Source of the DNA: a virus
IMG/VR virus record: IMGVR_UViG_3300036399_000955
Span: 1-23,857 of that record
DNA: 23,857 nucleotides
Direction: 5' to 3' (one strand)
The notes under the pieces were generated by a model. It was not told the DNA's origin and searched no databases. It saw nothing but the letters and a program-made list of their open reading frames with translations. Below are positions 1,042 to 18,776 of the stretch, piece after piece (the stretch's first letter is position 1; each line of letters opens with the position of its first letter). The translations under genes were made by a program, and so were the position numbers.

Positions 1042-1212
1042 CTATCTTCCTCTTCTTATTCGAATTTCTAATTCTTTTAAATAAGATGCTTTCCATTTGT
1101 GTTCAACCGATATAGGTCCATGAGGAAATTTATTTAAATCATATTTCCAAATAGAAACACATTCCTCATCTTCAAAAAGATGCTCAAATTTTTTAGATTT
1201 TTCTAAACTCAT
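1042..1212 (-). CDS. Small hypothetical protein, 56 aa
   Basis: An ORF of 56 residues with an ATG at 1212 and a TAG at 1042-1044. Its start overlaps the stop of the upstream SGNH gene in an ATGA arrangement, the same coupling used between many genes here, which is the main reason to believe it. The product is charged: it starts MSLEKSKKFEHLFEDEE, has a central tryptophan-containing stretch (SIWKYDLNKFPHGPI, then EHKWKASYL) and ends in a basic tail (EIRIRRGR). No signal peptide or membrane segment is seen. I do not recognise a family. Without this gene, 1042-1208 would be the largest gap in an otherwise gapless region. Confidence 0.7.
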   Translation of the reverse strand: MSLEKSKKFEHLFEDEECVSIWKYDLNKFPHGPISVEHKWKASYLKELEIRIRRGR

Positions 1213-1937
1213 TGATTAAAATATTCTGAATTTGTTTGTATAATGTAATTTGCAAATGATTCATGCATTTTGAGTGAAAAGTGATGGTCACCTTCTATAC
1301 CATATTCACCATGAGTTTCTTGCCATACATCATTCCACGTTTCCCAAAACCCTAAATTAGAAGTTATTTCACTTTTACCAATCACACAATCTGAATGATA
1401 TTCATCTGTCCAACTATAACATAATAATTTAAATGGTACATACGATTGTAATGATTTTATTATTTCTGAAAAATTATTAATACTGGCTTTTGATGTATTT
1501 ACTATTTTAAATAAATTTAAATTCAAATGATAATTTTGTGAATCTAACAATGACTTATTTAATTCAGTTAATGGTGGTTCTAATTTTGTAGATGCGTTAG
1601 TTGGTATATAAGAATTACTACCTACAAAGTAGTCTAAATGCTTCTCTTTATCTATTGATTTTACACATTTATTACTATGTTCTACATCCATAATAGGATT
1701 TAACAATGGTAGACGGACTCTTTCGGATGTTGGCAAAAACAATATTACAAAATCATTTGAATTTATAAAACTTAATTTTCTTAAAAAAATATCAATTATA
1801 GTTTGAGTATCTCTACTGCCTTTAGATGATACATAATACTCCTCACCGATAAATTGCTCACAAACTTTAAAAATCCACGCGTTTGGATAGGAACCCGTAA
1901 AACTATCTCCAATAATCCAAATTTTTTTATTTTCCAT
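1209..1937 (-). CDS. SGNH/GDSL-type hydrolase, 242 aa
   Basis: Probable serine esterase or acyltransferase of the SGNH superfamily. Block I is IIGDSF near the N-terminus with nucleophile Ser12. A Gly/Ser-rich turn (SSKGSRDTQ) follows where block II is expected, then the hydrophobic strand FVILFLPTSERV. The C-terminal catalytic Asp/His appears as GDHHFS (Asp217, His219), followed by an amphipathic helix. No signal peptide, so it is probably cytoplasmic. It lies between an HddA-type sugar kinase and a small ORF and is one of four such proteins in the window; the setting suggests removal or transfer of acyl groups on a glycan. The substrate cannot be told from sequence. A 22-base spacer separates its ATG from the kinase gene. 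Confidence 0.75.
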   Translation of the reverse strand: MENKKIWIIGDSFTGSYPNAWIFKVCEQFIGEEYYVSSKGSRDTQTIIDIFLRKLSFINSNDFVILFLPTSERVRLPLLNPIMDVEHSNKCVKSIDKEKHLDYFVGSNSYIPTNASTKLEPPLTELNKSLLDSQNYHLNLNLFKIVNTSKASINNFSEIIKSLQSYVPFKLLCYSWTDEYHSDCVIGKSEITSNLGFWETWNDVWQETHGEYGIEGDHHFSLKMHESFANYIIQTNSEYFNQ

Positions 1938-1959: not shown

Positions 1960-2988
1960 TTAAATTTGCCAAGTCCTCATACCAAATTTATTCCAAGTAA
2001 ATGGTTGATTATATCCCATTTCTAATTTATCCAATGCTTTTATAACATCGTATTTGGTATTATTCGGACAATAAAAGAACATAAATCCTCCACCTCCTGC
2101 TCCACTTATTTTACCACCCGTTGCTCCAGCTTTTAATGCAGTTTTATATAATAATTCTATTTCGGGAGTACTAATGCCTTTTGCTAATAATTTTTTTTGT
2201 TGAAATCCATAATCTAATATTTCACCCAATTCATCTATATTTCCTCGTATTAAACAATTTTTAATAAGTTTAGCCTGTTCTACTAATGCGTGTAATGAAA
2301 GTAAAGACGTTGTATTTTTGTCCGCCATTTTCTTAACTTGCTCTTCCAATACATCCGAACTGTTGCGTGTAAAATTAGTAAAATATAAAACAATGTTATT
2401 TTCGATTTCATCCTGTACTTTATCTCTAATTCTAATTGGGTTTACGATTACATCGTTTCCTCTAAATTCCATATAATTGAATCCACCAAACGCAGCTGCG
2501 TATTGGTCTTGTTTTCCACCGTTTTCTTTTAATTCAATTCTTTCAATTTGAATTGCCATTTCGGCTATATCGTACTCACCTAATGGCAAATTGAATAGTT
2601 CCATAAAAACTCCAATAATAGAGACTATAAGAGTTGATGATGTACCTAGTCCACTTCCAGTTGGAACATCTTGATTGGAAATTATATCGTACCCAAATGG
2701 TTCTATATTGAATCGTTTGCAAATGTGATTATGCGTTGCTTTAAACAACTTTAATCCATACGAACAATCTAACTCACTACTGAATTCATGCTCCTCATAT
2801 TCCTCCTTATTTACCCATTTAAACGTAACTCTGGTATCATCTCTTAATTGTAAAGATGTATGTGTAAATAAACGAATTGTAGTGTTGATTACTGCTCCAA
2901 TATGTGTTTTGGTATATTCTGGCATATCAGTACCACCTCCACCAAATGATATTCTAAATGGAACTTTACTTCTATATATTCTCTTCAT
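1960..2988 (-). CDS. hddA: GHMP-family sugar kinase, D-glycero-D-manno-heptose 7-phosphate kinase (HddA) type
   Basis: Predicted ATP-dependent kinase that phosphorylates C1 of a sugar phosphate, as HddA does in making GDP-heptose for surface glycans. The N-terminus carries KVPFRISFGGGGTDMPEY, characteristic of HddA-like GHMP kinases; the ATP loop is PTGSGLGTSST; the C-terminal motif is GGKISGAGGGGFMFF. Length (342 aa) fits the family (~340). I place the start at the ATG at 2988 (MKRIYRSK), not at the upstream Met at 3009, because family members begin just before the RAPLRISF-like strand and this shortens the overlap with the upstream gene to 17 bases. No gmhA, gmhB or hddC was found in the window, so the host may supply the partners, or the true substrate may be a different sugar. 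Confidence 0.88.
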   Translation of the reverse strand: MKRIYRSKVPFRISFGGGGTDMPEYTKTHIGAVINTTIRLFTHTSLQLRDDTRVTFKWVNKEEYEEHEFSSELDCSYGLKLFKATHNHICKRFNIEPFGYDIISNQDVPTGSGLGTSSTLIVSIIGVFMELFNLPLGEYDIAEMAIQIERIELKENGGKQDQYAAAFGGFNYMEFRGNDVIVNPIRIRDKVQDEIENNIVLYFTNFTRNSSDVLEEQVKKMADKNTTSLLSLHALVEQAKLIKNCLIRGNIDELGEILDYGFQQKKLLAKGISTPEIELLYKTALKAGATGGKISGAGGGGFMFFYCPNNTKYDVIKALDKLEMGYNQPFTWNKFGMRTWQI

Positions 2989-3529
2989 CGGGCATACCAT
3001 TTTCTGCATACCAATTTTTTACATTACGTTCTCCTATTAATAAGAAGAAACAATTGTAACAAAGTGGTCTAATATTATCCAATACTCTATTGTTTAGATT
3101 ACCATCTAAAAAATCAATTAATAATGGCATTTTTCCATCCGTAATTCTTTCTTCACTGAATCCACAACTAGAACATACCTTTGGAACATACCCACTATCA
3201 AATAATTTGTTTTTGAATTTATGCAGAGGATATTTTATATGTTTACCCGCAATTAAATCATCTATATGATATTTTTTGTTTCGAATAGTTTTAGTCCTTT
3301 CTATTCCAACACCAAATGGATTTTTTAAATCGTCAAATATACCATATAATTTAGCATATTTTTTATAGGTGTTGTATGATACACCCAATGTTCTGGCTGC
3401 TTCAAACGCAGATTTAGATTGAGCCTGTGCTGCTTTTATTTGGGATTCTAAAATTGGTTTTGCACCCAATCCTCTTTTTGTAATTCTAATTTCAAGATTC
3501 GGAAAGAATCCTTCTACTTCATTTTCCAT
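2972..3529 (-). CDS. HNH-like zinc protein with N-terminal helix-turn-helix, catalytic His absent
   Basis: 185 aa. Residues ~38-62 form a helix-turn-helix-like segment (AARTLGVSYNTYKKYAKLYG), followed by a charged linker. The C-terminal half looks like the zinc-stapled core of HNH endonucleases: CSSC at 119-122, LIDFLDGNLNNRVLDNIRPLC in the middle, and CYNC at 157-160. In active HNH enzymes the core reads DH and ends CxNCH. Here the catalytic His is Phe140 and the last His is Phe161, while the four zinc cysteines are kept. I recall related phage proteins with the same DF wording, so this may be a DNA-binding subfamily without nuclease activity, perhaps a transcription regulator. It follows a 32-base spacer and overlaps the sugar kinase. 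The fold call is fairly firm; the function is inferred. Confidence 0.75.
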   Translation of the reverse strand: MENEVEGFFPNLEIRITKRGLGAKPILESQIKAAQAQSKSAFEAARTLGVSYNTYKKYAKLYGIFDDLKNPFGVGIERTKTIRNKKYHIDDLIAGKHIKYPLHKFKNKLFDSGYVPKVCSSCGFSEERITDGKMPLLIDFLDGNLNNRVLDNIRPLCYNCFFLLIGERNVKNWYAENGMPDEENI

Positions 3530-3561: not shown

Positions 3562-4440
3562 TCAAAATTTATTTTTTATATAATCTATAATTTTTTCAGA
3601 TATTAATTTTGAACCTCTTATAGAATTATGTCCATCAAAACTAACACCTTCGGTATCATCTGAAAACTTTGCTTTTCGTTCTGTACTAAACCAGTGTACC
3701 AAATCATAAGTTTCATCGAATTTTACAGAATATTTCAATATATCACTTTCTACTCGTTTAAATGATGCGAGTTTACCATATTTTGGATTTAAAAATTTTA
3801 ATTGATGTATTCTATTCGTACTTTCTAACGAAGTTTGAATAAATGCATAATTTATATTTTTAGAATTTAAAAGGTTTATCAGTAAATATAGTTTTTGATA
3901 TTCACTTACAATATCTGATTGGACATTAAATGATTTGTCATACCAATTTTGTATTAATTTAAAGTTTTCATTTTCAATAAAATCAAAATTATTTTCACCT
4001 GCAAAATTACAATATCTATTTTGGTTTTCAAAATACATTTCACCTCTACCAGGAGGGGGTAATTCCAATATGAATAATGTAGATTTTAATTCTTCATCAG
4101 ATGTATTCATTATATGTGTTACCGTTTTACGCACCACTCTATGCAATGAACCACCAAATATTGAATCATTTATTACTGGTATTTCAAAAAAATCTCCAAC
4201 TCTATTTACATAATTATATTTTTCTCTAACCCAATCAAATTCATTGAATGGTTCAAATACGTTTGGATTTGTAAATTGTGTATTTTCTTTAAATTTGTCA
4301 TGATGTTTACATTGTTCTAAAAAATAACTTATATCAATATCTTTTGTTTCTTCAAAATATTTAAAATACCACGGATTGTTATGACCATGCCCCCACATAA
4401 AACTGCAACCATTTGCGTATATTTTACTAAATGAGGTCAT
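3562..4440 (-). CDS. SGNH-like hydrolase, GCSF variant, 292 aa
   Basis: Second member of the SGNH group here. Block I is ANGCSFMWGHGH with predicted nucleophile Ser13; GCS in place of GDS is known in some SGNH branches. The middle holds a beta strand followed by LELPPPGRGEMYF. The C-terminal catalytic Asp/His is FDGHNS (Asp269, His271), then a helix. At 292 aa it is the longest of the four, with extra aromatic-rich sequence in the first 100 residues. The stop of the upstream CysC-like kinase overlaps this start by 4 bases, so the two are probably translated together. Likely an esterase or acyltransferase acting on a glycan; the substrate is unknown. Confidence 0.7.
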   Translation of the reverse strand: MTSFSKIYANGCSFMWGHGHNNPWYFKYFEETKDIDISYFLEQCKHHDKFKENTQFTNPNVFEPFNEFDWVREKYNYVNRVGDFFEIPVINDSIFGGSLHRVVRKTVTHIMNTSDEELKSTLFILELPPPGRGEMYFENQNRYCNFAGENNFDFIENENFKLIQNWYDKSFNVQSDIVSEYQKLYLLINLLNSKNINYAFIQTSLESTNRIHQLKFLNPKYGKLASFKRVESDILKYSVKFDETYDLVHWFSTERKAKFSDDTEGVSFDGHNSIRGSKLISEKIIDYIKNKF

Positions 4441-4883
4441 ACGATGTGTTTTATTAGATTTTTAAAAGTATCATCTACTGAATACGATGTATCTAAATTT
4501 ATAAAAAATTCAATTGGTTTTTCGTAATCTAATGCGAAAAAATCCTCCCTACCTCTGATTTTTTTTGTGTGGCAATAAATTTCTTGTACTTTACACTCTG
4601 ATTTAAGTTGTTCTCTCATTTCTCTATATGGAGAAACTAAACTAATCACAACATCATTGCCAGATTTATCCAAATATTTAGCAATATCAAATGCCTTTTG
4701 AATATTCCTTTCTCTACCTTCTTTTGAATAATCTTTATTTGGAAATATTTCTCTTAACTGGTCACCATCTATGTGGAATACGGATTTACGCCAATTTTTT
4801 TTATCGGTTTGTAACCATATTTGTAACTTTTTAGCCAATGTGGTTTTTCCACTTCCTGGTTGGCCGGTAAATAGATAAATCAT
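4437..4883 (-). CDS. CysC-like P-loop kinase (adenylylsulfate-kinase family), short form
   Basis: 148 aa P-loop kinase. Walker A is GQPGSGKTT (7-15); HIDGDQLR (37-44) matches the CysC substrate loop LDGDxxR; DYSKEGRERN (51-60) matches FSxxxRxxN; SPYREMR (84-90) matches ISPxR. These are adenylylsulfate kinase signatures. The protein is ~50 residues shorter than typical CysC (~200 aa): the RDPKGLYKKA lid segment is missing and only FFALDYEKP stands where FTGIDSVYE is expected. Related kinases in Campylobacter capsule loci act on cytidine diphosphoramidate rather than adenylylsulfate, so the substrate is open. No sulfotransferase or ATP sulfurylase is visible. It overlaps its neighbours by 4 bases on both sides. 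Confidence 0.8.
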   Translation of the reverse strand: MIYLFTGQPGSGKTTLAKKLQIWLQTDKKNWRKSVFHIDGDQLREIFPNKDYSKEGRERNIQKAFDIAKYLDKSGNDVVISLVSPYREMREQLKSECKVQEIYCHTKKIRGREDFFALDYEKPIEFFINLDTSYSVDDTFKNLIKHIV

Positions 4884-5863: not shown

Positions 5864-6271
5864 TTATTTTTTAGGGGGTTCAATTGTACCGTCATTACCA
5901 TCCATCGCATCGTGAACCGAATTCAATTGGTCTACTGCTAATGTGATTTGAGAATACATCCAAGAATCTAATTGCTGTCCTTCTGACATTCTTTGTAAAA
6001 TCATATTTGCATAATCAGCAATTCTTTCCAAATCACCCATTGCCATTTCTTTCAATCCTGCCAATGTTTCTTCCGGTGAAGAATTATCATCACCCTCTTG
6101 CATTTTGTGTTTAAGTAATTCAGTCATTTTGTTGAATACTTGCTCACCACCATTCTCTCCTAAACGATATGCTCCTCCTAATTTCTCATAAACTTTAATT
6201 TTATGAGACATTGGCATACTTTTTTCGTTTACAGCTTTCCAAGCTTTTGGATTAGTTACTTCAAATTTCAT
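5864..6271 (-). CDS. Hypothetical phage protein, possibly structural, 135 aa
   Basis: Soluble, mostly helical, with a basic N-terminus (MKFEVTNPKAWKAVNEKS), an acidic/Ser-rich turn around GDDNSSPEE, and a C-terminal helix LDSWMYSQITLAVDQLNSVH ending in an acidic tail. The SW-x-SQITLA-x-DQL-x-SVHDAM wording is familiar from short proteins of T4-like marine phages annotated as hypothetical or virion-associated; this is from memory and not checked. Its ATG overlaps the TGA of the upstream SGNH gene. It is one of the few genes in this stretch with no link to sugars. Confidence 0.55.
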   Translation of the reverse strand: MKFEVTNPKAWKAVNEKSMPMSHKIKVYEKLGGAYRLGENGGEQVFNKMTELLKHKMQEGDDNSSPEETLAGLKEMAMGDLERIADYANMILQRMSEGQQLDSWMYSQITLAVDQLNSVHDAMDGNDGTIEPPKK

Positions 6272-6909
6272 ATTAAATTTAATTGTATATACTGATATAA
6301 ATATAAAAAAAATTCTTTATGCCCTTCTTTACCAAAATGTCTGTCATTATTTGTTTGCCACCATAATGAAGTTTTGTTACAAACATCTATCCAACATTCC
6401 GCTTCAATAGGAGTTATATAATTTTTACTATGATTTTTAACCATTTTATTGAATATGGGTAATCCACACTTATCCATATTCCAAAAAAATACATTTGTGT
6501 ATCTTTTTAAATTTTCTATTATAAAGTTATATTGTAATAATGCATTTTCTGTATATTGCATCATTTCATTTTTACTTGATAATTTATGTTTATAAAACTC
6601 TATTTCACTTTCGTTAAATCCTTTTATATCATTATTTCTCAAATCAATACCTATATTTTTCCAAAAATCATATAATCTATCATAAAAAGTAATTCCAATT
6701 ATAACAATATCATCTTTATCTAAATTATCAATATTGTGATACATTTTATGCAAAATCCCATAATTTGATATTCCAGCAGATGCATAAGATTGTAGTTCGT
6801 AATTTAATTTATTGGATAACAAAACCGGCCAAGATTCTTCTATTGATACTTCATCTATAGTTGAAAAATTAGTAGAAAATGAATCACCAAATATGTATAA
6901 ATTTTTCAT
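6268..6909 (-). CDS. SGNH/GDSL-type hydrolase, 213 aa
   Basis: Third SGNH protein. Block I is YIFGDSFST with nucleophile Ser10; a block II-like ASAGISNYGI (Gly and Asn of the oxyanion hole) follows near residue 45-52; the hydrophobic strand DDIVIIGITFYDR comes next. The C-terminal catalytic pair is NDRHFGKEGH (Asp189, His191). Length and block spacing match minimal SGNH esterases. No signal peptide. Its ATG overlaps the TAA of the oxygenase gene upstream (TAATG), implying coupled translation. Presumably an esterase or acyltransferase working with the nearby glycosyltransferases; the substrate is not predictable. Confidence 0.77.
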   Translation of the reverse strand: MKNLYIFGDSFSTNFSTIDEVSIEESWPVLLSNKLNYELQSYASAGISNYGILHKMYHNIDNLDKDDIVIIGITFYDRLYDFWKNIGIDLRNNDIKGFNESEIEFYKHKLSSKNEMMQYTENALLQYNFIIENLKRYTNVFFWNMDKCGLPIFNKMVKNHSKNYITPIEAECWIDVCNKTSLWWQTNNDRHFGKEGHKEFFLYLYQYIQLNLI

Positions 6910-7637
6910 TAAAATAATTTATCTTTTCTCTTTTTTCTTTGAGTTGCAAACGCCAATAGAGTACATCTATTATGTTCACCTATTATCTTTTCTACTGCAT
7001 GAGATGTATCAAATGTTTGCAAATCAATAATTGCAACTTTTCCAAATTTAGGAGCTATTTTGTATTTAGTTTCTTTATCAATTGAATGAGTATTTTTTGT
7101 ATTTCTTAATATTAAACTACCACCCCAGTCTTCTTCCCACTCCTCATTTAAATAAATCAATACAGCGCAAGTATTTTGATATTCGTTACCTTGTCCATCA
7201 TTGTGGTCTTTTAAATAGCATCCTTCAGAATAGCATGTCCATTGTAACGCACAATTAACATCATCTTCGGTTTGATTATAAAAATGTTTTATTATTTGAT
7301 AATACGTTTGTTTTATAATTGAATTATCTGAAAATGGTATCATTTCACTTTGTAACCATATCTGTGCAATTTTATTTTCATCGTACTTCTTTATTAAATT
7401 ATTTTTTTCAATAATCGCGTTTTTAAAAGTTTCAAATCCTTCATTAATTCTATATGAATTATGATTTTCATCATGTGCATCAAATCTAACTATAGTAAAC
7501 TTTTCCAAATAATTATCATCCGATACTTTGTATTTTAATTCTAAAAATGCGTTATACGATTCTTCACTAAAATCTTTTAAATCAAAATCACAATATCCAT
7601 TAGTGTGTAATGATTCGTTTGCTTCTATTAAATTCAT
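6909..7637 (-). CDS. 2-oxoglutarate/Fe(II)-dependent oxygenase, prolyl-4-hydroxylase-like
   Basis: 242 aa with the facial triad and co-substrate residues of the 2OG-Fe(II) double-stranded beta helix: His145-x-Asp147 in LKDHNDGQG, His213 in DTSHAVEKI, and Arg224 in HNRCTLLAF. The strands between (CAVLIYLNEEW, WGGSLILRN, GKVAIIDL) fit the P4H-like family, where WGGxL is typical. It couples oxidation of 2-oxoglutarate to hydroxylation of a protein, sugar or small molecule. T4-like phages of aquatic hosts often carry such oxygenases, usually with unknown targets. Here it sits between a GT-A-like gene (4-base overlap) and an SGNH gene (1-base overlap), so a target in the same glycan or glycoprotein pathway is plausible. 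Confidence 0.87.
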   Translation of the reverse strand: MNLIEANESLHTNGYCDFDLKDFSEESYNAFLELKYKVSDDNYLEKFTIVRFDAHDENHNSYRINEGFETFKNAIIEKNNLIKKYDENKIAQIWLQSEMIPFSDNSIIKQTYYQIIKHFYNQTEDDVNCALQWTCYSEGCYLKDHNDGQGNEYQNTCAVLIYLNEEWEEDWGGSLILRNTKNTHSIDKETKYKIAPKFGKVAIIDLQTFDTSHAVEKIIGEHNRCTLLAFATQRKKRKDKLF

Positions 7638-8524: not shown

Positions 8525-9312
8525 TTATATTTGTTTTCTATTAACTTTTTAAGTTCTTCATTTCTATCATATTGATGAACTAACGTGTATAATTCCCCTT
8601 TTAAATTTCTAACATCGCTTCCATCGATAGTTGGTAATTTTTCAGTATATGGTAGTATATCTCCCTTTTTTAATTTTAAATGCAACTGTGCAGCAAATCC
8701 TTCCTGTTGTTTTACAAATTGAACTTTATCTTTAAATTGATGTAAACGAATTAAAATATTATATGCCGCTTGGTCTGCCAATTGTTCCCTATTTGATGTG
8801 GTTAAACTCCATCTATAAATATCAATAAATAAGTCTCTAATAGCATCTTTCTTACCAACAATAGTTCCTGCACAACATATTTCTTCATTTTGTAACCAAT
8901 CCCATTCCATAGGAAATGATGTACCTGCATTTAATCTTGCCCATTCTTCATCTCCAAATTTCAATGATTCCGAAAAAGCAAGAATATCTTTATTCATGTT
9001 CTTATTTAACCATTCGGTTGGGTCTTTTTGGAATACAATATCCTTTACATCTACCCATATAATCACATCCGTTTCGTATTGATGTAAAACCTGATACATA
9101 TCTCTAAATCTTTGCAGTATGATATGTTGTTGCGGTTCCGATTGTATTAATTTCCAACCTTTAACATTAAGGTATTCTATTGTATCTTGAGTAATTTCAT
9201 AAACCAACATCAATTTATCTCCATTAAACCCACTACGTTCAATTGATTCAATAAATGGTCTAATTTGCTCTACTCCGTATTTAGTTATGCAACCTATTAT
9301 TGTGTATTTCAT
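8521..9312 (-). CDS. GT-A-like glycosyltransferase, 263 aa
   Basis: Starts MKYTIIGCITKYGVEQIRPF, then a conserved-looking block IIWVDVKDIVFQKDP where Asp-x-x-Asp takes the place of DxD, then CCAGTIVGKKDAIRDLF, LADQAAYNILIR, and VHQYDR near the end. This order (WxDxxDxxF, xAGxxxG, DQxxYN, xHQYDR) is that of a group of GT-A transferases found in bacterial and viral surface-glycan clusters. No membrane segment. Its 5' end overlaps the GDPD gene by 32 bases, which is long for this region; the ATG at 9312 is needed to keep the first beta strand. Specificity unknown. Confidence 0.65.
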   Translation of the reverse strand: MKYTIIGCITKYGVEQIRPFIESIERSGFNGDKLMLVYEITQDTIEYLNVKGWKLIQSEPQQHIILQRFRDMYQVLHQYETDVIIWVDVKDIVFQKDPTEWLNKNMNKDILAFSESLKFGDEEWARLNAGTSFPMEWDWLQNEEICCAGTIVGKKDAIRDLFIDIYRWSLTTSNREQLADQAAYNILIRLHQFKDKVQFVKQQEGFAAQLHLKLKKGDILPYTEKLPTIDGSDVRNLKGELYTLVHQYDRNEELKKLIENKYK

Positions 9313-9742
9313 ATTCTTTTATATTATCTGTCATTATTGCGTAACATTTTGTAATGTCACCGATATATCCCATTTCAGGCATACAACATATTGAATTTTG
9401 TATTAATTTTTCACCAGGTTTAACTAATACCCTTTTATTTGATATCAAAGTGTAATTATCAATTGTATGCCAAAAATAATTGAATCCACCGATTGCGTTA
9501 AACCACTCCATTGCGTCTACATTCTTACAATGTATCCATAGGTGTTCGTATCTTTCGTTTAACCAATGTTGAGTTATACCATATTGCGGTTCATCGTGTC
9601 CTAAAAATAAAACACCTTCAATCATCCATATATCTATTTCGACATCATAACCTAATGAAATTGCTTCATCTATATAATTAGGATGATTCTCTCTTTCAAT
9701 ATTTCTACCGTTTATGTTTCCTCTATGTGCAATCCATTTCAT
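9281..9742 (-). CDS. Minimal GDPD/PI-PLC-like phosphodiesterase, 153 aa
   Basis: Glycerophosphodiester phosphodiesterase fold. The active-site signature is intact: AHRGN (His6, Arg7), DVEIDIW (Glu35, Asp37) for metal binding, FLGHDEP (His49), and WIHCKN with Lys73. These residues cleave phosphodiesters through Ca/Mg-assisted acid-base chemistry. At 153 aa it is well below the ~230-300 of most GDPDs, so the second half of the TIM barrel seems reduced. I use the ATG at 9742 (MKWIAHRGN); a TTG two codons earlier is unlikely. It lies directly after the nucleotidylyltransferase gene. It could trim a phosphodiester-linked group (glycerol-P, ethanolamine-P or similar) from a glycan; this is inference. 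Confidence 0.78.
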   Translation of the reverse strand: MKWIAHRGNINGRNIERENHPNYIDEAISLGYDVEIDIWMIEGVLFLGHDEPQYGITQHWLNERYEHLWIHCKNVDAMEWFNAIGGFNYFWHTIDNYTLISNKRVLVKPGEKLIQNSICCMPEMGYIGDITKCYAIMTDNIKEYEIHNNRLHN

Positions 9743-9759
9743 ACACAAATATACTAAAA

Positions 9760-10581
9760 TTATTTATATTTACCAAATTGTTCATTGTAGTGTTTCCAAT
9801 AATGATATGTCCAAATTAATTCATCTTGTGATTTTATACCACTTTTTAAAATAGTTTGCCAAGCTTCAAAATTTTGAACTTCTTCTGGAGTTCCAAATAC
9901 ACTAACATAATCAGTATCATAGATTGTAACATTCAATCCATCATTAACCATTAAATTGTAAACTAATGTTACATAATACTCACCATTGTAGTTTATATCC
10001 AAATCCATCAATTGTTTGAAATACTTTTTAACATATTTACCTTTTGCAAAATAATATGTTCCAGTTGAAGCATGTTCTTCAATTGGTTTATCTGTATATG
10101 GTTCTTTTTCTTTTATCTCAATCAATTTACCATTATCCTCTTTTATATGTGCCATAAAAGTTGGACTCAGTCTATGTGGATGAAACCCAACATGAGAAAG
10201 AATGCAACCATCTGAATTTTTAATTGATTGTTTGAAATCGTTATAATCCCAAAGGTATGGATTATCACAATAAGTGATTATAACTTCTTCATCATCTTTT
10301 ACATCTAAATTTTTTAAAGTATAAACTGGTCCTTTTTTGTGGTTTTGTATAATGTAAATTTCAGATTGTTTAACTAATTTATTCAATATTTCAACCATTT
10401 TGGTATTGTTGGCGTGTTCTTCATTTATTACAAATATAAACTCGTCATTTTCAATATCAAACATTTCAACAATATATTCTATAATTAATTTTCCATTGAC
10501 GTTTATTAATGGTTTTGGGTCTATGTATCCTGCTTTAACAAATCTATCCCCCATACCTGCCATTGGAACTATAATCTTCAT
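9760..10581 (-). CDS. Sugar (or small-molecule) phosphate nucleotidylyltransferase
   Basis: 273 aa. The N-terminal pyrophosphorylase signature is IVPMAGMGDRFVKAGY followed by DPKPLINVNGK (Lys23), which binds the NTP; TYCDNPYLWDY supplies Asp106 for metal; the later EKEPYTDKPIEEHASTGTYYF is the acceptor-side region. It joins an NTP to a sugar-1-phosphate or analogous phosphate and releases pyrophosphate. The AGMGDRF loop is closer to capsule-locus transferases of the Cj1416 type than to RmlA or GlmU, so a sugar-1-phosphate substrate is not assured. Its ATG overlaps the stop of the kinase-aldolase gene by 4 bases, so the two probably act in sequence. Class is certain; base and substrate are not. 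Confidence 0.87.
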   Translation of the reverse strand: MKIIVPMAGMGDRFVKAGYIDPKPLINVNGKLIIEYIVEMFDIENDEFIFVINEEHANNTKMVEILNKLVKQSEIYIIQNHKKGPVYTLKNLDVKDDEEVIITYCDNPYLWDYNDFKQSIKNSDGCILSHVGFHPHRLSPTFMAHIKEDNGKLIEIKEKEPYTDKPIEEHASTGTYYFAKGKYVKKYFKQLMDLDINYNGEYYVTLVYNLMVNDGLNVTIYDTDYVSVFGTPEEVQNFEAWQTILKSGIKSQDELIWTYHYWKHYNEQFGKYK

Positions 10582-12002
10582 TTTCTATATTTTTCTGATT
10601 TTAGATTGTTTAAATACTCAATGTCTTTATTTGATAATTTTTTAATTTTACCTAATTGTTTAGCGTAATATACAATATAATTATGTGAGGCGAGTGTTTC
10701 GTTATCATTTATTATAACAGAATCTGGAAATGTAAATATATTTTCCTTTGGATATTCGGCCCAACTTAAATCAAATTCTTTAAATTTTATTACATTTCTT
10801 TCAATATATTCCTTTGAATATGTATTAATTCTAGAAATTAAATCAATACATTTATAATAGTTATCATAGGAAACTATTAAACCGTGATTTTCTAAAAATA
10901 CAACATTTGATATGCCATTCGTATTTAAAATTTTATGTGTTAATTCCAATCCTGGGTTATAGTATTTCAAATAAGTGTATTTGAAATCTTCATTTTGGAA
11001 TAATTCATCTATAATATCTTTTCCATTTTCTAATGATAAGATACAATTCAAATATATTGGGTGTACATGAAACACATATTTATCAAATAAACTATGAAAC
11101 CCAGTTTCCATAGATGGTTTTTTATATAAAGAATTTTTGATTGATACCTCCAATATATCATCTAGCATATCATCATCTAATATATTATTAAAATCAATAT
11201 TTTTATAATCTATAATAGAATAACCACTACCATACTTTATATTTTTTAATTTTCCACCACTTTCTTTTATTATTAATTTATCACCAAATTTTGATGATAT
11301 ATTTCCTCCCTTTGATTGAACTACATTTAATCTATTTCCAATTGTTTGATTTATCCATTCAAATTCATACAATTCACGATGCATTTTTTTAATAAACTCA
11401 AATAACATACAATCTACATCGGAATTATATGTTACATTAATACCATCCATTTTGCTAATTTTGATTATAACATCAGCTTTTTTAATTTGTATGGATTTAA
11501 TATGTTCAAAATCTTTTTTTCGCTTGGATATTAGTTCTACTACTTTTTCTTTCGTATATCCTCTTTCATTTGTATCTCTTTCAACTTTAAAATCTGTTAT
11601 TAGATTTTCATCAGTATCAATGTATATTTTTAAATCTGTTAATAATTGGGATTCATTTGTGTAAAATGAATGTAATCCTTCATTTATAACATATTTTTTT
11701 GGTGAAATATAGATTGGTTCGTTAAATTTTCCAGTTGAATGATTGTATATTTTTCTTAATATTTTTTCTCCATTCTTGAGTGATATCAAATGTGAATCAC
11801 CCAATTTTAAATTATTTGCAGATGGATTTAAATGTGTAATGGAATTCCACATAATATGGTTTCTTTCCCATTTATGCAAGTCATCTCCTGAAATGGATAC
11901 AGTATTACCATATCCATAATATAATCTTATGAAATTTGCAATAGTAGATTTCCCAGAAGCAGAATCACCGGATATACCAATGATATATGGGTTATCTTCC
12001 AT
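10578..12002 (-). CDS. Fusion: phosphoribulokinase/uridine-kinase-like kinase + class II aldolase/adducin domain
   Basis: 474 aa in two parts. Residues ~1-215 are a P-loop kinase of the phosphoribulokinase/uridine kinase family: Walker A GDSASGKST (12-20), GDDLHKWER (39-47), ITHLNPSANN, YNHSTGKF, VINEGLHSFY and ERDTNERGY. Residues ~225-474 are a class II aldolase/adducin domain: GGNISSKFGD and the phosphate-binding ESGGKL, Glu299 (METGFH), zinc ligands His312/His314 (FHVHPIY) and His373 (LENHGLIV). Both active sites look complete. I start at the ATG at 12002; an upstream Met at 12047 would overlap the previous gene by 56 bases. One chain could phosphorylate a small substrate and then carry out aldol cleavage, condensation or epimerisation, feeding the co-translated nucleotidylyltransferase. 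The pathway is not known to me. Confidence 0.85.
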   Translation of the reverse strand: MEDNPYIIGISGDSASGKSTIANFIRLYYGYGNTVSISGDDLHKWERNHIMWNSITHLNPSANNLKLGDSHLISLKNGEKILRKIYNHSTGKFNEPIYISPKKYVINEGLHSFYTNESQLLTDLKIYIDTDENLITDFKVERDTNERGYTKEKVVELISKRKKDFEHIKSIQIKKADVIIKISKMDGINVTYNSDVDCMLFEFIKKMHRELYEFEWINQTIGNRLNVVQSKGGNISSKFGDKLIIKESGGKLKNIKYGSGYSIIDYKNIDFNNILDDDMLDDILEVSIKNSLYKKPSMETGFHSLFDKYVFHVHPIYLNCILSLENGKDIIDELFQNEDFKYTYLKYYNPGLELTHKILNTNGISNVVFLENHGLIVSYDNYYKCIDLISRINTYSKEYIERNVIKFKEFDLSWAEYPKENIFTFPDSVIINDNETLASHNYIVYYAKQLGKIKKLSNKDIEYLNNLKSEKYRK

Positions 12003-18119: not shown

Positions 18120-18776
18120 TTATTTATTTAAATATTTTAATATATCATTTGCCAATTCCTTATAACCTACTTCACCATAATGCCCATCTCTAACTACATT
18201 AGCAGTTTCTTTACTCATATCGGTATAGTTTACAACCGGAAATGATAACTTCAAATTTTGTTTACCACCTATATTTTCATTACACCAACTCCAATGGATA
18301 ACTTTTACATCTTTTAAGTTTGCCCAATCATTTATAAATGTAATCCATTGATTAACTTCTTGCTCATAGAAATGTTGTAAATCACACCTATTATAAATCA
18401 ATTGCTCCGCTACTTCCTTTGTTATATATGTTCCATCTACACACTCATATTCAGGAAGATTCGATAACCCTACAGACCAGATTGTTTTCCATCCGTGTTT
18501 AGATGCTACTCTGTATCTAGCTATAACTGTCCATCCAAAAATTAGGATATCACCTGATTGAATGTTTTGTAATTCTGAAAGGAATTTGTGAAATATTCCA
18601 CAATTGGAACTTCCACTAACTCCCATATTTTTTACACTAAACCCGTATTCTTCTGCTACAAATGTAGCAGTATCCTTTGCATCTCTACCCAACCATTGTT
18701 TGTAAGGACTGGGGTCATTAGAGGTGCCATTTATAGGTGCTGTCATTGAATCACCGAAAGACCATACTCTGTTCAT
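18120..18776 (-). CDS. SGNH/GDSL-type hydrolase, 218 aa
   Basis: Fourth SGNH protein and the clearest. Block I: VWSFGDSMTAP (Ser10). Block II/III: NMGVSGSSNCGIFHKF, supplying the oxyanion Gly and Asn. Core strand: GDILIFGWTVIARYR. Catalytic pair: VRDGHYGEVGYKEL (Asp197, His199). There is an insertion between blocks II and V (~residues 95-150) with several Trp and Cys. No export signal. It overlaps the upstream unknown gene by 4 bases. Same inference as its relatives: hydrolysis or transfer of acyl groups on a glycan. Confidence 0.8.
   Translation of the reverse strand: MNRVWSFGDSMTAPINGTSNDPSPYKQWLGRDAKDTATFVAEEYGFSVKNMGVSGSSNCGIFHKFLSELQNIQSGDILIFGWTVIARYRVASKHGWKTIWSVGLSNLPEYECVDGTYITKEVAEQLIYNRCDLQHFYEQEVNQWITFINDWANLKDVKVIHWSWCNENIGGKQNLKLSFPVVNYTDMSKETANVVRDGHYGEVGYKELANDILKYLNK

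Follow-up and report, generated by a model that had tools for sequence, protein, structure and literature searches.

Which small molecule does a phage make with a kinase joined to an aldolase, in a gene that overlaps that of a nucleotidylyltransferase? The question is raised by a 23,857-bp fragment of a T4-like virus (termed the window here, for its whole length), on which all clear genes lie on the minus strand. A groEL gene stands at one end and genes for a clamp loader and an exonuclease at the other, and many glycosyltransferase and sugar genes fill the space in the middle. The preliminary description of this locus had read the overlapping pair as a possible new pathway to an activated precursor.

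Composition of the kinase-aldolase fusion

The fusion gene occupies 10578..12002 on the minus strand (ATG at 12002, TGA at 10580-10578) and encodes a protein of 474 residues. Its phosphoribulokinase-like (PRK) kinase domain (residues 7-182; 11457..11984, minus strand) matches PF00485 with E=1.5e-34 and 120 bits against a curated cutoff of 22, while the class II (FucA-type) aldolase domain (residues 224-394; 10821..11333, minus strand) matches PF00596 with E=1.7e-9, also above the curated cutoff; this Pfam search had been suggested in the preliminary description, and it recognized both halves. The kinase domain contains a complete Walker A motif, SGDSASGKS (loop GDSASGKS, residues 12-19, at 11946..11969, minus strand), and an ERG motif at residues 146-148. 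In an alignment of 21 diverse viral fusions, Gly12, Ser14, Gly17, Lys18, and Thr20 are invariant, as are Asp40, Asp41, His43, Arg47, Lys139, Arg142, Asp143, and Arg147 of the kinase and Glu299, His312, His314, and His373 of the aldolase, so that the Walker A, ERG, and zinc site residues first reported from the translation alone are present as numbered and conserved. A C-terminal tail (residues 395-474; 10581..10820, minus strand) carries FPD and SEKYRK motifs shared with the bacterial aldolases described below. The monomeric AlphaFold model of the whole fusion has a mean pLDDT of 92.8 and a pTM of 0.89.

Neighboring genes in the window

The fusion gene is joined to the next gene by a 4-base ATGA stop/start overlap (10578..10581, minus strand; the junction reads AAAATGAAGA), as previously noted. 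This gene encodes a nucleotidylyltransferase (NTPT) of 273 residues (9760..10581, minus strand; ATG at 10581, TAA at 9762-9760), in which the signature G-x-G-x-R-F..PKP and conserved Asp motifs are present. It matches the solved NTP_transferase superfamily member 4evw by sequence (1.5e-12) and by profile (6.2e-19), scores 20.4 bits against PF12804, under the curated cutoff of 27, and reaches at best 55.8 bits with the named equivalogs, for a cutoff of 292; the GlmU and RmlA models remain far below theirs. The statement that its loop is not RmlA/GlmU-like is thus right at the level of the subfamily. The protein shares 37% identity and the motifs YCD and GFHPH with a tandem protein from an Escherichia coli plasmid, and it is an ortholog of the first half of the tandem NTPTs found in bacterial and cyanophage loci.

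A third gene, missed in the preliminary description, begins 17 bases past the end of the NTPT gene and encodes a small GDPD-like phosphodiesterase of ∼153 residues (9281..9742, minus strand) with a reduced barrel and H-R, E-N, E-x-D, and H-D motifs. These motifs are invariant among 40 viral members and, except for one D-to-E replacement, in the bacterial ones as well. Pfam gave no match for this protein, but its profile matches a putative GDPD of solved structure (2.1e-6), and its AlphaFold model (pLDDT 93.4) retrieves the GDPD 1v8e as the top Foldseek entry with a probability of 0.99, although with E=7e-3 and a TM score of 0.39, a loose match of the kind expected for a shortened barrel. In PHROGs, the NTPT (phrog_3980, 1.5e-62), the GDPD-like protein (phrog_34507), and the aldolase domain (phrog_13212) all fall in families listed as of unknown function.

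The same gene island encodes a GHMP kinase (1960-3009; phrog_34407, without an assigned function in PHROGs), an APS-kinase-like P-loop protein (4437-4883), and a 2OG-Fe(II) oxygenase (6909-7637). Four proteins of the window (1209-1937, 3562-4440, 6268-6909, and 18120-18776) have SGNH/GDSL-like starts (IGDSF, FGDSM, and similar); a Pfam search with two of the four gave no match, and these proteins are possibly esterases or transferases of the glycan island.

A conserved module in viruses and bacteria

Co-occurrence was surveyed in public collections with the kinase domain alone as the query, and the flanking genes were then examined. The survey covered 80 bacterial loci (L033-L112) among at least 154 relatives and 69 viral loci (L113-L181); genome contigs scanned with the whole fusion gave no match, probably because the patterns were over-specific, whereas the kinase-domain profile did find relatives. 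Genes for NTPT, aldolase, and GDPD lie beside the PRK gene in 42 of the 50 viral and 55 of the 62 bacterial loci whose flanks are complete, all of them found by PRK only, and the GDPD-like gene is present in 49 of the 50 viral ones. In the reverse direction, viral loci found through the NTPT alone contain the aldolase in 68 of 80 instances, and most of the remaining loci are incomplete at their ends. The preliminary description had named a failure of the fusion and NTPT genes to recur together as grounds for giving up the proposed pathway; they do recur, with the NTPT directly downstream in 33 of the 34 loci of the kinase-domain survey that hold both. The fusion itself is found in 56 loci, a count that includes the window and repeated views of a single contig; at 85% non-redundancy they come down to ∼20 sequences, which form one clade and are nearly always accompanied by the NTPT and the GDPD-like protein. 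Such recurrence argues against a chance joining. The identical fusion is also encoded in IMG/VR records L002 and L003, which duplicate the window virus exactly or almost exactly.

Three viral forms were distinguished. The first, that of the window, combines the PRK-aldolase fusion with a single NTPT. In the second, which forms another viral clade (L131:7302-8786 and its relatives L121, L146, and L168), a glycosyltransferase-like N-terminal domain of ∼220 residues precedes the PRK domain, the aldolase is separate, and the NTPT is a tandem protein; the third is the kinase-less form of cyanophages. In several relatives of the window virus (L116:9416-10777, L117-L120, and L137), an HAD+NTPT fusion replaces the NTPT; by eye, it is similar to the latter half of the tandem NTPTs.

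The bacterial gene order is tandem NTPT, GtrA, GT2, GDPD, a protein joining a membrane domain to PRK, HAD, and class II aldolase. Carriers belong to Pseudomonadota, Acidobacteriota, Thermodesulfobacteriota, Cyanobacteriota, Planctomycetota, Bacteroidota, Actinomycetota, and Bdellovibrionota, at least eight phyla as read from record titles and taxonomic groups; some carriers are metagenome bins, for which misassignment is possible. GtrA was found in none of 65 viral loci and GT2 matched once there, while both were met in most bacterial loci. The entire bacterial module also sits on a small E. coli plasmid (L028:5481-12683; NZ_CP145712, an IncR plasmid with IS26 nearby, and also NZ_JCAPUP010000005), in 2 of 5426 E. 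coli genomes. Near the module, 13 of ∼85 bacterial loci encode a SAM-dependent methyltransferase (e.g., L032:7665-8480), in each case from the same family. Two loci (L104 and L107) contain a stand-alone module-type PRK of ∼320 residues with no partners within 20 kb.

The bacterial module resembles GtrA-GtrB-type O-antigen modification systems in having GT2, GtrA, and a polytopic membrane domain; unlike those systems, the window lacks GtrA and the membrane domain, and GtrA-GtrB-type systems are not known to have a kinase, aldolase, phosphatase, GDPD, or NTPT of their own. No description of the module was found in the family libraries or in the open-access literature searched, a body of text outside which most subscription papers fall; articles on a cyanobacterial PRK paralogue and on xylulose-containing or glycolaldehyde O-antigens gave nothing on it, and the idea of a D-xylulose O-antigen, for which no supporting evidence was found, was dropped. 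The co-occurrence of NTPT, aldolase, and GDPD makes a pathway to an activated precursor very plausible. The outline given in the preliminary description therefore stands, but it was incomplete, since further members (GDPD and HAD, with GtrA, GT2, and a membrane domain in bacteria) belong to the set, and the pathway is not confined to this virus. The three genes of the window almost certainly belong to a conserved module, of which they would be a viral edition, supplying a surface-glycan precursor. Judged by its sequences, this module is a clearly conserved yet undescribed pathway built from known enzyme families.

The kinase half is closest to phosphoribulokinases

Among solved structures, the closest relatives of the fusion kinase are phosphoribulokinases by sequence (7e-38), by profile (7e-53), and by fold, with the AlphaFold model as the query. 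The likeness to this family (PF00485, NF005655/PRK07429; PDB 9qko, 6hzk, and 6kev) extends over the fold and the Walker A loop, and the top matches by structure are 38-39% identical to the window protein across the kinase domain. Positions of solved PRKs that are kept in module kinases include D-D-x-H-x-x-x-R, GLH, and K-x-x-R-D-x-x-x-R-G. The residue preceding GLH, Glu in PRK, remains Glu in the window and in nearly all viral fusions and is Ser in the bacterial module kinases and Cys in the glycosyltransferase-fused viral ones. Against the phosphoribulokinase subfamily NF005655, the fusion scores 187 bits, below the cutoff of 236 and over the N-terminal 207 positions only. In a tree of 105 kinase domains, the module kinases form one clade (99/89) that adjoins the Calvin cycle PRKs from outside and is remote from uridine kinases; within it, a single subclade comprises the viral fusions and the unfused L149 kinase. 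The earlier label of a PRK/uridine-kinase-like domain was correct as to the PRK family, but the tree, the structures, and the conserved positions indicate a phosphoribulokinase-like rather than a generic uridine-kinase-like enzyme. Apart from their separate clade, module kinases are unlike phosphoribulokinases in being fused to aldolase, membrane, or glycosyltransferase-like domains and in lacking a RuBisCO context.

The aldolase half and the bacterial HAD phosphatase

When aligned with L-fuculose-1-phosphate aldolase (FucA), the aldolase half shows an identical set of one Glu and three His and retains the GN-S and S-G positions of the phosphate loop. The closest NCBIfam models are RhaD-type aldolase domains, all far from reaching their equivalog cutoffs. 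Because the Foldseek list for the fusion is occupied by kinases, assignment of the aldolase fold rests on sequence profiles. Compared with FucA/RhaD-type class II aldolases (PF00596; PDB 1fua, 2opi, and 3m4r), the module protein has the same zinc histidines, catalytic Glu, and phosphate-loop positions but differs by its extra FPD...EKYRK tail and by its location in glycan clusters. An AraD-like epimerase and an MtnB-like dehydratase were considered and judged less likely, as the acid residue is Glu and is accompanied by the FucA phosphate loop.

All 18 of the bacterial module HADs match NF053830, the family of ribulose 1,5-bisphosphate (RuBP) 5-phosphatase. The scores are about half of the curated cutoff of 330; for one of these HADs, this family ranks first with 168 bits against 97 for the next. 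The small HAD of phages is of a different type, with a weak EcbF-BcbF match. Neither type was found around the fusion: the small module HAD is absent from the known 41 kb of the window virus in a search with positive controls, and no bacterial-type HAD occurs in the neighborhood of the window.

A biochemical precedent exists in halophilic archaea, in which an HAD enzyme turns RuBP into ribulose 1-phosphate and a FucA-type aldolase then gives dihydroxyacetone phosphate (DHAP) and glycolaldehyde; RuBP derives there from nucleosides through ribose-1,5-bisphosphate isomerase, and the pathway serves catabolism (PMC9700705). The bacterial module shares with this non-carboxylating pentose bisphosphate pathway a RuBP 5-phosphatase-like HAD, a FucA-type aldolase, and RuBP as the branch point, and departs from it in having a PRK-like kinase, NTPT, GDPD, and glycan genes. 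With the HAD and aldolase resembling the haloarchaeal enzymes of the final steps, the kinase, HAD, and aldolase of the module line up as successive steps.

Kinase-less cyanophage modules and a second fusion

Cyanophages, among them S-SM2 and Bellamy (L029 and L030) and those of loci L007-L027 and L195-L255, encode tandem NTPT, GT61, aldolase, a small HAD, and GDPD, without a PRK-family gene; the complete genomes of S-SM2 and Bellamy contain no PF00485 gene. Among viral records of at least 40 kb, psbA/psbD is present in 6 of 7 that lack the kinase and in 0 of 29 that bear it (Fisher p 3.6e-6, an optimistic value, since several PRK-bearing records are near-copies and independence is overstated). 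For a scheme based on pentulose phosphates, this distribution could be read as kinase-less modules occurring where the Calvin cycle of a phototrophic host makes RuBP. However, where cyanobacteria have the complete module, they retain the membrane-PRK protein despite a Calvin cycle PRK of their own (L111, L191, and L192), so that supply of RuBP by the host is not upheld as a rule, and the missing kinase of cyanophages may reflect shared ancestry rather than redundancy.

In two further cyanobacterial loci, the same tandem NTPT, GtrA, and GT2 genes adjoin an epimerase, a P-loop kinase, and an FBP-type aldolase. One genome (G304, L193:7400-14709) encodes a 1293-residue fusion of kinase, FBP-type aldolase, and ribulose-phosphate 3-epimerase, and the other (G457, L274:6464-12618) a 951-residue kinase-aldolase with the epimerase separate; the domains match PF00834 (ribulose-phosphate 3-epimerase, 1.2e-25) and PF01116 (FBP-type class II aldolase, 1.3e-7). 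Grouping by phylum and family suggests that both genomes are from picocyanobacteria. A methyltransferase of the family mentioned above is encoded near the first of these variants (L193:14943-15764). Kinase and aldolase have thus been fused here a second time, from unrelated proteins and at the equivalent genomic position. FucA-type aldolases cleave D-ribulose 1-phosphate and FBP-type enzymes D-xylulose 1-phosphate, in both cases to DHAP and glycolaldehyde; the two variants would accordingly converge on the cleavage products.

A proposed pentulose bisphosphate route and its alternatives

The conserved kinase positions, the HAD family, the psbA/psbD pattern, and the picocyanobacterial variant all point to pentulose phosphates. 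In the route considered here, the kinase is predicted to convert ribulose 5-phosphate to RuBP, or to a close pentulose bisphosphate. The bacterial HAD, like its haloarchaeal counterpart, would then form ribulose 1-phosphate, and the aldolase would break the C3-C4 bond of the ketose 1-phosphate to give DHAP and glycolaldehyde or its phosphate. The NTPT would activate some product of this sequence as an NDP derivative for use by neighboring glycosyltransferases. In L192:8799-11075, tandem NTPT and GT2 glycosyltransferase are fused in one 758-residue protein, which suggests that the NTPT product is the donor for GT2. In bacteria, GT2, GtrA, and the kinase-fused membrane domain suggest that transfer to a surface polysaccharide may proceed through a polyprenyl-phosphate carrier; GtrA/GtrB and ArnC-type enzymes are polyprenyl-phosphate machinery, and the ArnC model is among the weak relatives. 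Without an HAD, the aldolase of the window virus would face RuBP itself, and for this virus RuBP may be the direct substrate, the host may provide a phosphatase, or one may be encoded outside the known 41 kb. Pentulose bisphosphate and retro-aldol chemistry is, on these comparisons, somewhat favored. The complete explanation, a glycan precursor module with a pentulose bisphosphate route to an activated donor, is the best available and has an even chance of being correct; that the activated unit is a cleavage product rather than the whole pentulose is a tentative proposal.

Counting against this explanation, a C2 unit fits a polyprenyl-phosphate carrier poorly. Such a carrier usually bears a sugar, which favors the intact pentulose, or a sugar assembled from the products, over a bare C2 unit. 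The pentulose might therefore stay whole: its phosphate would be moved to C1, the NTPT would make an NDP-pentulose, the aldolase-fold protein would epimerize or equilibrate pentulose 1-phosphates, and the glycan would receive pentulose or pentulose phosphate. The bacterial GT2/GtrA machinery suits a sugar, kinase and RuBP 5-phosphatase-like HAD together amount to a net phosphate transposition, and relatives of class II aldolases include the 4-epimerase AraD. The catalytic acid of AraD is Asp, however, and that of the module protein is Glu, as in FucA. In addition, FBP-type aldolases cleave ketose 1-phosphates of the other C3 configuration than FucA-type enzymes, so that the product shared with the picocyanobacterial variant would be a cleavage product and not one ketose. 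This alternative is considered unlikely.

Rather improbable as well is a kinase acting on a small phosphorylated substrate other than pentulose 5-phosphate, with an unrelated rare precursor as the outcome. The position of the kinase family in its own clade apart from Calvin cycle PRKs and the loss of the Glu before GLH in the bacterial enzymes are consistent with such a change of substrate, but nearly all PRK-conserved positions are retained, and the HAD, epimerase, and aldolase partners all indicate pentulose phosphates.

Phages are known to carry auxiliary genes of central carbon metabolism, and the fusion could by that analogy be an auxiliary catabolic enzyme that provides the infected cell with DHAP made from host pentose, with the adjacent NTPT gene signifying a mere island of sugar genes. 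Although DHAP is a likely product of such an aldolase, as in the haloarchaeal case (PMC9700705), the strict co-occurrence with one NTPT family and GDPD in viruses and bacteria, the NTPT immediately downstream in 33 of 34 fusion loci, and the glycosyltransferase-like fusions and glycan context make this very unlikely.

Implications for phage and bacterial surface glycans

The five enzymes of the set stay grouped in bacteria of at least eight phyla, in cyanophages, and in other T4-like viruses, and the libraries searched contain no family name or description for them. The set very likely makes an undescribed component of surface glycans, and it seems, from its gene content, to convert a common pentose phosphate, by a route not described before, into an activated unit from which such glycans are built. 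A more speculative version, which we regard as doubtful although worth stating, is that in many phyla and viruses RuBP is split by a retro-aldol reaction and a small unit is loaded onto surface glycans by way of the tandem NTPT and the GDPD-like enzyme; that this pathway arose two or more times, using kinase-aldolase fusions that are not homologous; and that cyanophages lean on the host Calvin cycle for its first step. RuBP as a precursor is a concrete, testable biochemical hypothesis. If true, it would account for the functions of phrog_3980, phrog_34507, and phrog_13212 and, in cyanophages, would tie phage surface chemistry to the Calvin cycle of the host.
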